Source: Blastochloris tepida (GTDB lineage: Bacteria > Pseudomonadota > Alphaproteobacteria > Rhizobiales > Xanthobacteraceae). Taken from it: DNA of 64,000 nt. Numbering within the stretch: the stretch's first letter is position 1; each line of letters opens with the position of its first letter. The stretch spans positions 2,778,001 through 2,842,000 of the forward strand of contig NZ_AP018907.1 of the NCBI RefSeq assembly GCF_003966715.1, given 5' to 3'. Shown piece after piece: positions 54,241 through 56,986 of the stretch. The position numbers and the translations under genes are program-made. Under the pieces are notes generated by a model that was not told where the DNA came from, ran no database searches, and was given only the letters and a program-made list of their open reading frames with translations.

Positions 54241-54275
54241 CGGAAAAGCCCCGTCCTGAAAGCGATCCCGGGTTG

Positions 54276-54452
54276 GAACGGCGAACTGTGCTTTGATGGG
54301 TGCACCGGCTCGGGGTGGCCACCCCGAGCCGGTGCGGGCGGCACGCCGTATCCCGGGTGAGCCTTCGAGGCCGTCGCGAGCAGAAGCGGCCGTCCGTCCC
54401 AAGCCAACCCGAACAGTTGCACGGGGCTTTTGACCCCGCTTCCAAGCCTGGG
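54276..54452 (+). ncRNA. Candidate bridge RNA of the IS110 element
   Basis: The 177-nt left end before the transposase start. It begins with a 34-bp perfect palindrome (54302-54335). A first loop holds ATCCCGGGT (54350-54358), identical to the left half of the target, and CGCGAGCA (54375-54382), the reverse complement of the right half TGCTCGCG. A second loop holds ACAGTTG (54413-54419), identical to the right end of the element, and TTCCAA (54440-54445), the reverse complement of TTGGAA at its left end; a GGGG/CCCC hairpin lies between them. This order (left target, right target, left donor, right donor guide) is that known for IS621 bridge RNA. Transcription and boundaries are inferred. Confidence 0.7.
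54302..54335. repeat. 34-bp perfect palindrome
   Basis: Two 17-bp arms without a spacer, GCACCGGCTCGGGGTGG and CCACCCCGAGCCGGTGC. It lies in the left end of the IS110 element and would form the 5' stem-loop of the candidate bridge RNA. Confidence 0.95.
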
Positions 54453-55421
54453 ATGCTTGCCATGCTGCCACACCCGACGCCGTTTGCCACCCACCTTGTG
54501 GGCATCGATGTCTCCAAGGACTGGCTCGACATCGCCTTCGACGACACCAAGGTCGAGCGCGTCGATAACACCCCCGCGGCTCTCCAGCGCTTGGCCAGGC
54601 GCCTGGTGAAGGCCGGGCTCACCACCGCCGGCCTGGAGCCGACCGGCGGCTATGAACGCCTGGCGGTCGCGGTGCTGCGCGAGGCCGGCCTCACCGTGCT
54701 GCAGGTCGACAGCTGGCGCTGCCGCCAGTTCGCCAAGGCCTGCGGCCAGCGCGCCAAGAGCGATCCGCTCGACGCCCGCATCATCCGCGCCTTCATGCTG
54801 CATCACCCCTGCCGGCCGTTCCCGGAGCCCTCGCAAGCGCAGAGCGACCTGACCGCCTGGGTGCGCGAAATCACCCGCGCCGAGGCCGACATCCGCCGCC
54901 TCGAGAACCGCAAGGCCCACCCCACCCTGGCGGCCATCACCGCCCGGCTCGATGCCGAAATCGCCGCCCTGCGCGAGACCGTCGCCGCGGCCGAACAGGC
55001 CATCGAGGCGTTGATCGCCGCCGATCCGGCGATGGACGCCAAGGCCAAGATCATCACCTCGGTGCCGGGGATCGCCAACAAGACGGCCCGCGTCCTGCTC
55101 GCAGAAGCTCCCGAACTCGGCCAGTTCAGCCCCCGCCAAGCCGGTGCCATCGGCGGCTGCGCACCCTATCGCAACGACAGCGGCAAAGCGCGGCGGCCGG
55201 CCCATATCGAGGCCGGACGCCGCGCGCTCAAGCGCGCCTGCTATCTCGCCGCCTTCGCCGCCATCCACTGGAACCCGTGGGCCAAACAGCTCTACGCCGA
55301 CCTCAAAGCCCGCGGAAAACCCGCCAAGGTCGCCCTCATCGCCATCGCCCGAAAGCTCCTGACCATCCTCAACGCCATGATTCGAGACAACAAACCCTGG
55401 CGAGACCCCAAAACCGCATGA
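54453..55421 (+). CDS. IS110-family transposase (DEDD recombinase)
   Basis: 322 residues from ATG at 54453 (ATG at 54462 is possible). The N-terminal RuvC-like DEDD domain shows THLVGIDVSKDWLDIAFDD, TTAGLEPTGGYERLAVAVL and FAKACGQRAKSDPLDARIIR with three of the four acidic residues. A coiled middle follows, then the Transposase_20 domain IITSVPGIANKTARVLLAEA, GAIGGCAPYRNDSGKARRPA HIEAGRRALKRACYLAAFAA with the conserved Ser/Gly-rich site. These enzymes recombine through a circular intermediate guided by the element's RNA. The frame is intact, and the stop is 6 bp from the element's right end. Confidence 0.93.
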   Translation: MLAMLPHPTPFATHLVGIDVSKDWLDIAFDDTKVERVDNTPAALQRLARRLVKAGLTTAGLEPTGGYERLAVAVLREAGLTVLQVDSWRCRQFAKACGQRAKSDPLDARIIRAFMLHHPCRPFPEPSQAQSDLTAWVREITRAEADIRRLENRKAHPTLAAITARLDAEIAALRETVAAAEQAIEALIAADPAMDAKAKIITSVPGIANKTARVLLAEAPELGQFSPRQAGAIGGCAPYRNDSGKARRPAHIEAGRRALKRACYLAAFAAIHWNPWAKQLYADLKARGKPAKVALIAIARKLLTILNAMIRDNKPWRDPKTA

Positions 55422-55423
55422 CA

Positions 55424-55456
55424 GTTGCTCGCGCGGCTGACGCCGCTTGCCCGGGA
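55424..55456. repeat. Right half of the palindromic repeat split by the IS110 element
   Basis: GTTGCTCGCGCGGCTGACGC followed by CGCTTGCCCGGGATGAC. The left half is GCGATCCCGGGTTG ending at 54275. Together they form the hairpin GATCCCGGG ... CCCGGGATGAC. Confidence 0.85.
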
Positions 55457-56813: not shown

Positions 56814-56986
56814 GTCATCCCGGGCAGGCAGCGAAGCTGCGCGAGCAACCCGGGATCGTCATCAGAAAAGGCGAAAACTCCCCGCACGGTCCCGGGTCTC
56901 GCTGACGCTCGCCCGGGACGACGCGAGATGGCAAACGGTCCCGGCTCGGCGCCGGATGCTGCGCATCCCGCGCCGTCCGGGACGAC
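56814..56986. repeat. Three palindromic intergenic repeats, including an empty IS110 target site
   Basis: At 56814-56861, GTCATCCCGGGCAGGCAGCG ... GCGAGCAACCCGGGATCGTC; at 56885-56924, ACGGTCCCGGGTCTCGCTGA ... GCCCGGGACGACG; at 56936-56986, ACGGTCCCGGCTCGGCGCCG ... CCGTCCGGGACGACAG. The first, read on the minus strand, contains ATCCCGGGTTGCTCGC, the full target of the IS110 element, uninterrupted. The cluster fills the gap between convergent msrP and the LysR gene. Confidence 0.85.

Follow-up and report, generated by a model that had tools for sequence, protein, structure and literature searches.

The window analysed here, a 64,000-nucleotide stretch of the Blastochloris tepida genome, contains an IS110-group insertion sequence, a real element of an already known kind (Table 1). 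The element very probably excises as a circle and is inserted under the guidance of a bridge RNA, as IS621 is; the element itself, its copies and its ends are observed directly, and we infer the circle, transcription and catalysis. The 22 copies found, with their slightly differing targets, a polymorphic guide base and unequal cores, amount to a natural mutagenesis record of the guide and core positions that matter and of the way mismatched cores resolve. Bridge RNAs are under development as genome-editing tools, and the value of this element is that of a clean natural data set, not of a new mechanism.

Table 1. Features of the element, its predicted bridge RNA and the surrounding repeats (positions in the window)
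Feature	Position	Strand	Basis or detail
Left target, positions 1-7, ATCCCGG (host REP)	54265..54271	+	[A/G]TCCCGG in 22/22 copies
Target core, positions 8-9, GT, host-derived	54272..54273	+	Copy comparison
IS110-group element without core dinucleotides	54274..55427	+	1154 bp; ends identical in the 22 copies found
Right donor TGGAA, the element's left end	54274..54278	+	Sequence match
Left non-coding end, encoding the predicted bridge RNA	54274..54452	+	179 nt
Candidate -10 box TTTGAT of a promoter formed only at the circle junction	54292..54297	+	Weak
Perfect 34-nt palindrome, predicted 5' stem-loop of the RNA	54302..54335	+	Fold
Predicted target-binding loop	54336..54395	+	Outer stem GGGCGGC(A)CGC/GCGGCCGTCC; inner hairpin GCCT-TCG-AGGC; 14 x 14 internal loop
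Predicted left target guide ATCCCGG with core guide GT (ATCCCGGGT)	54350..54358	+	A at base 54350 in 18 of 22 copies, G in the other 4
Predicted right target guide CGCG	54375..54378	+	Sequence match
Putative target-loop core guide AG, pairing with donor core CT	54379..54380	+	Model from excerpts of PMC11208158
Putative target-loop handshake guide CA	54381..54382	+	Complementary to donor positions 6-7 (TG, 55426-55427)
Predicted donor-binding loop	54407..54452	+	Inner stem CGGGG/CCCCG well supported; outer stem weak
Predicted left donor guide ACAGTTG, then CA at the core positions	54413..54419	+	Sequence match
Predicted right donor guide TTCCA	54440..54444	+	Sequence match
Putative donor-loop core guide AG	54445..54446	+	Sequence match
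Putative donor-loop handshake guide CC	54447..54448	+	Complementary to target positions 6-7 (GG, 54270-54271)
Recombinase gene, 322 aa, DEDD_Tnp_IS110 and Transposase_20	54453..55421	+	Pfam
Left donor ACAGTTG, the element's right end	55421..55427	+	Overlaps the gene's last base
Probable donor-borne core CT	55428..55429	+	22/22 copies
Right target CGCG and rest of REP, to CCCGGGAT	55430..55456	+	Sequence
Unoccupied REP ATCCCGGGT-TGCT-CGCGCAGC, candidate excision scar	56817..56855	-	TGCT absent in both sister genomes (G001, G002)

The element and its copies

The recombinase carries both Pfam domains of the family above their cut-offs, PF01548 (DEDD RuvC-like) and PF02371 (catalytic serine). Its significant matches among solved structures are the recombinases of ISCro4 and IS621, of which ISCro4 is the best (9t56, E 2e-27), a comparison made by recombinase sequence, and in the alignment as we read it D19, E62, D104, D107 and S243 fall opposite the D, E, D, D and S of IS621. 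Members of the IS110 group hold their RNA in a long left end and have a short right end, and the reverse holds for the IS1111 group. The non-coding left end of this element measures 179 nt (54274-54452, and not the 177 nt of the original prediction) and its right end extends 6 nt beyond the stop codon. Its guides match its own target and donor, the left guides in sense and the right guides in antisense orientation, and the second core base is T at the left and the right ends of all 22 copies. The IS1111 group, with RNA in a long right end and long subterminal inverted repeats, was rejected because the right end here is short. A 6-bp inverted match, ACAGTT/AACTGT, was spotted by eye at the element's ends.

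Excision as a circle would bring a candidate -35 box, TTGCTT, to 17 nt from the -10 box listed in Table 1. The boxes have 3/6 and 4/6 matches and another pairing of boxes reached an equal total score; the junction promoter was set aside as too weak.

The genome to which the window belongs (G000; 3.95 Mb, one contig) holds at least 22 near-full-length copies, a lower bound in that 40 of 419 first-look candidates were scored. The copies are 1154 bp long in 21 cases and 1153 bp in one (L021, which is frameshifted), and the recombinase gene is intact in 21 of the 22. Every copy found sits inside a REP-like palindrome, whose halves flank it, which bears out the earlier proposals that the target is a palindromic repeat and that the genomic copies share it. 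For two copies at about 2.377 and 2.383 Mb (L003, L006), the left and right flanks lie at separate places in the sister genome G002, which suggests that copies or repeats have rearranged with one another in one of the two genomes. A search of the genome contigs for related loci returned only two distant relatives (L061, L062), which were not used thereafter.

Guides and fold of the predicted RNA

The four segments on which the original prediction was built stand where it placed them (ATCCCGGGT at 54350-54358, CGCGAGCA at 54375-54382, ACAGTTG at 54413-54419 and TTCCAA at 54440-54445), the flank and end sequences with which it compared them are present as it described, and its order and location of left and right target guides and left and right donor guides are correct. 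It had judged chance unlikely to produce four ordered matches. When 54274-54452 was shuffled 20,000 times with its dinucleotides preserved, 9 of the shuffles contained ATCCCGGGT, 108 CGCGAGCA, 57 ACAGTTGC and 235 TTCCAAG, the last two strings being one base longer than those first proposed; all four in order occurred in none (0/20,000).

The division of these segments has to be revised. In IS621, according to excerpts of PMC11208158, top-strand exchange brings in the donor core, with which the right target guide then pairs, and another two bases pair with donor positions 6-7; the donor loop pairs likewise with target positions 6-7. The eight-base right target guide CGCGAGCA was located properly and divided wrongly: it would comprise the guide CGCG, the core guide AG and the handshake CA. 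Both two-base handshake guides had been overlooked. In the corrected register the predicted RNA reads like an IS621 bridge RNA, including both handshake guides, which strengthens the case for a bridge RNA. The fit at the cores is incomplete: of the left donor guide's core bases CA, the C matches the donor core CT and the A mismatches, and the AG of the target loop mismatches the first base of the GT core.

The wider family was compared in a table of eight elements, with guides placed by hand and with G110 and G035 left aside, their junctions being undefined. The fit of guides to their cognate targets was equalled by 2 of 40,320 permutations. At handshake position 7 the donor loop fits the target in 8/8 elements and the target loop fits the donor in 7/8; since G7 is present in target and donor alike, this position carries no information, and position 6 is the one that discriminates. 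Both handshake positions fit in 2/8 elements for each loop, and the target-loop handshake of the G001 element fits at neither. The same-order IS110 relatives (L114 and L143; loci in G001, G046, G077 and G101) lie in CCCCTCACCC-like or CTCCCC-like repeats, and their guides fit.

The original prediction had also proposed folding the left end and asking whether the four segments fall in two internal loops. Unconstrained minimum-energy folds of the left end lacked the two-loop form and buried the guides in stems, an outcome that the original prediction had named as refuting; plain minimum-energy folding was dropped as a test, since the guides, rich in GC, pair among themselves. When the guides are kept single-stranded, the fold consists of the 34-nt palindrome hairpin, a target loop whose 14 x 14 internal loop holds both target guides, and a donor loop. 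Shuffled non-guide letters folded as well in 23/1000 cases for the target loop and 38/1000 for the donor loop, so that energy alone is modest evidence.

Comparison between elements adds to this. The RNA alignment comprised the window's element and nine relatives, G110 and G035 among them; G113, G125, G128 and the second element of G138 were kept out as having left ends too different-looking, and L061 and L062 are likewise absent. An unguided consensus fold of the ten elements recovered the outer and inner stems of the target loop and the inner stem of the donor loop; a small pairing that it proposed across the target loop was dropped from the pair set. In the 19 pairs kept, 87.6% of cells are paired against 77.4% in shuffled data, and 11 of the pairs show two-sided changes, a number reached in 0/500 shuffles (mean 5.4). 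As a control, sliding the partner strand cut pairing to 29.7-48.5%. The outer donor-loop stem is unsupported by pair counts on the ten elements, and Rfam gave no family above its gathering score, with sub-threshold matches only. The stems predicted from the ten elements support most of the two-loop form obtained with unpaired guides. The earlier assignment to the IS110 group, with a two-loop bridge RNA encoded in the left end, is supported by the protein domains together with the constrained fold, the consensus fold and the pair counts.

Target, core and choice of site

Most copies have a left junction in which [A/G]TCCCGGGT is followed by the element's TGGAAC; deviant junctions read GGGTCT (L010, L015, L017, L020), GGCT (L013) and GGTT (L002) before TGGAAC. 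The left cores of the 22 copies are GT in 16, CT in five and TT in one, and the right junction is ACAGTTG followed by CT in 22/22; six right ends fetched from G002 all read ACAGTTGCT. Among empty repeats the readings are ATCCCGGGTCTCGC, ATCCCGGCTCGGCGC and GGGTCGC. Read from these sequences, the target is ATCCCGG[GT]CGCG, or ATCCCGGGT[CT]CGC in a register shifted by 2 nt, in which guide bases 54352-54358 (CCCGGGT) would pair with positions 1-7 and GA would lie opposite the core. The shifted junction GGGTCT is found in four copies here and in 2/7 left junctions of G002.

From a chosen list of 21 copy-locus pairs, the sister-genome alignment spans the junction for 14 copies. The empty G002 counterparts of L003 (right flank; GGGTCGCGCAGC), L012 (GGGTCGTCGC) and L009 (GGGTCGCG, with a changed loop) read GG[GT]C and lack the CT that follows ACAGTTG when the site is occupied. 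Counterparts of L010 and L017 read GGGTCTCGC (GGGT[CT]CGC) with a single CT, and the occupied sites have a CT on each side. That of L018 fits the target model except for one missing G. The other 8/14 have a different repeat at the junction and are uninformative on the target model; they include the counterpart of the window's own copy, ATCCCGG[CT]CGCG, in which the core is CT and not GT. The CT at 55428-55429 is most likely a donor-borne core. In the simplest model the donor junction is ACAGTTG[CT]TGGAA and the target consists of a left target, a core NT and a right target, with the left end of an inserted copy keeping the target core and the right end the donor core.

By analogy with IS621, the excised circle would carry the donor-borne CT at its junction and is predicted to read ACAGTTGCTTGGAA. 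The left-end RNA would pair both with the target in the REP, through ATCCCGG, the core and CGCG, and with the donor, the junction of right and left ends. Immediately 3' of the core the top strands would be cleaved and then exchanged, with help from the handshakes CA (with donor TG) and CC (with target GG); such an exchange would leave the target core, mostly GT, at the left junction and CT at the right.

One guide base varies naturally. At target position 1, the 18 copies with an A guide base all have A (18/18), and the four with a G guide base have G, G, A and A; within the genome this association of guide with target, a direct observation, has p = 0.026, with L005 and L008 possibly not independent, their left flanks being near-identical. 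Unoccupied CG[A/G]TCCCGGGTC sites number 16 with A (20 in all, from which four left flanks of copies were subtracted) and 59 with G, from which the 16 GGGT-type A-guide copies (16 A, 0 G) differ with p = 2e-9. When only GGGTCGC sites are taken, their empty A and G forms counted by eye, the empty sites comprise 2 A and 37 G and the occupied ones, under the target model, 10 A and 2 G (p = 3e-7). Under that model 10/12 A-type repeats of this class hold a copy against 2/39 of the G type, which suggests that the best-matching sites are near exhaustion.

The sister genome G002 provides a comparison. All seven of its left junctions lie at G-sites and none at an A-site, and the sole copy there with sequence reaching the guide, a truncated one, carries G. 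Against a wide background (108 A, 97 G) this has p = 0.006 and against a narrow one (23 A, 66 G, the GGGTCGC sites counted by eye) p = 0.19; taken by itself, G002 falls short of proving that G is preferred, since significance is reached only against the wide background. Under the A preference of the window's genome, seven G-sites out of seven would have a probability of about 1e-11 in a simple model, and G002 is without that strong preference. The natural variation among copies fits a guide that chooses the site. A confounder remains: within a repeat pair, A-sites and G-sites are mostly found in opposite members. In G002, the place that corresponds to the window locus contains a 97-bp left-end fragment on the minus strand (L063:1840-2140; C66:129402-129498), which carries a G guide and the junction GGTCCCGGGTCT.

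Alternative readings and known systems

The original prediction took the target to be ATCCCGGGTTGCTCGCG, with a core of TT or TTG and an element of 1152 bp between repeated TTG, and it implies a circle reading ACAGTTGGAA. The 18 copies that have GGGT at the left are consistent with such a target at both junctions, and one empty repeat in the window, at 56817-56855, reads exactly so. That repeat, however, is the only empty REP in the genome to match it, against dozens reading GGGTC, and neither sister genome has the TGCT at the corresponding place. The right half that it assigned to the host, TGCTCGCG, begins with the element's own right end (TG, 55426-55427), continues with the likely donor core (CT, 55428-55429), and this CT is missing at the right junction from empty sites in the sister genome; the left junctions ATCCCGGGTCT and ATCCCGGCT, each before TGGAAC, would also go unexplained. 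We regard this version, and the circle that goes with it, as very improbable. The GGGTCT junctions might instead be later CT duplications or recombinants between copies, and not a shifted register. Rearrangement between copies is evident elsewhere, in the separated flanks of L003 and L006, and L020 has an extra CT on both sides; yet these junctions occur at four distinct sites in the window's genome and at two of seven in G002, the empty counterparts of L010 and L017 are the exact shifted target, and the guide can pair with positions 1-7 in that register. Duplication or recombination is accordingly an unlikely source of the four junctions.

A more general objection is that the recombinase protein itself reads the site, as a palindrome or cruciform, and that relics or coincidence account for the guide matches. 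REP palindromes are structured targets, the association of insertion sequences with REPs was described before RNA guidance was known (excerpts of PMC1525189), and the A/G preference could reflect some other difference between the two REP orientations. Against a site read by protein stand the four ordered guide matches, the RNA structure conserved in relatives, and the preference for A-sites with an A guide that disappears in G002 with a G guide; we find it barely credible. Guidance by the RNA, with a target core kept on the left and a donor core on the right, is the reading retained.

The empty REP at 56817-56855 resembles a scar left when a former copy was excised or deleted; its extra TGCT is identical to donor positions 6-9. 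The same TGCT would result if a copy had been deleted between its two GTTG repeats, or from a joining that keeps both 4-nt ends of staggered cuts, with the top strand cut after position 9 and the bottom strand, as we place it from the numbering in excerpts of PMC11208158, probably between positions 5 and 6. TGCT may also be a chance insertion, and a single site cannot tell these routes apart. A second candidate scar, TCCCGGGTCTTGCTC at G001:C1:1537952-1537966, was rejected: its counterparts are equally long, and the difference lies in substitutions in the window's genome.

A split-core recombinase could tie these observations together. The left target guide would read the target's GT and the right one the incoming donor's CT; the end cores of the 22 copies would record the surviving strand, target on the left and donor on the right; one guide would serve two registers 2 nt apart; and in the scar GGGT-TGCT, positions 6-9 of the target and of the donor would both survive, as the 4-nt segments predicted by the staggered top and bottom cuts in IS621 structures. 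This joint reading seems to us possible, and a little short of probable.

Much of the framework has been published: excerpts of PMC11208160, PMC11208158, PMC11187229 and PMC1525189 describe bridge RNAs and their handshake guides, the targeting of REPs by IS621 and cases of guides redirected in nature. Searches of the open-licence literature brought up no earlier account of the element, a split core or a scar of this type. The element resembles IS621 of E. coli, as presented in excerpts of PMC11208160 and PMC11208158, in its recombinase family, the RNA in its left end, the order of its guides, the succession of 5' stem-loop, target loop and donor loop, the REP target, the handshake guides and the T at position 9. 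Unlike IS621 in those accounts, it has a palindromic 34-nt 5' hairpin, a different target, a target core that is mostly GT beside a donor core CT, and target guides that differ in their core (GT versus AG). CT is highly conserved in target and donor of IS621 and its relatives, and GT, AT and TT were tolerated in tests, according to the same excerpts.

A change of guide accompanies a change of target also in the pairs ISEc21/ISMch6 and ISEc11/ISXne4 (excerpts of PMC11187229). Those are different insertion sequences with transposases about 72% identical, whereas here one guide base varies among copies about 99% identical and in a sister species. The IS110-family elements ISPa11, ISPpu9, ISPpu10 and ISRm19 lie in REP sequences in all copies listed in excerpts of PMC1525189, a study that predates RNA guidance. 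Of these, ISPa11 carries its RNA downstream of the gene (excerpts of PMC11187229), unlike the element described here, whose predicted RNA lies in the left end.
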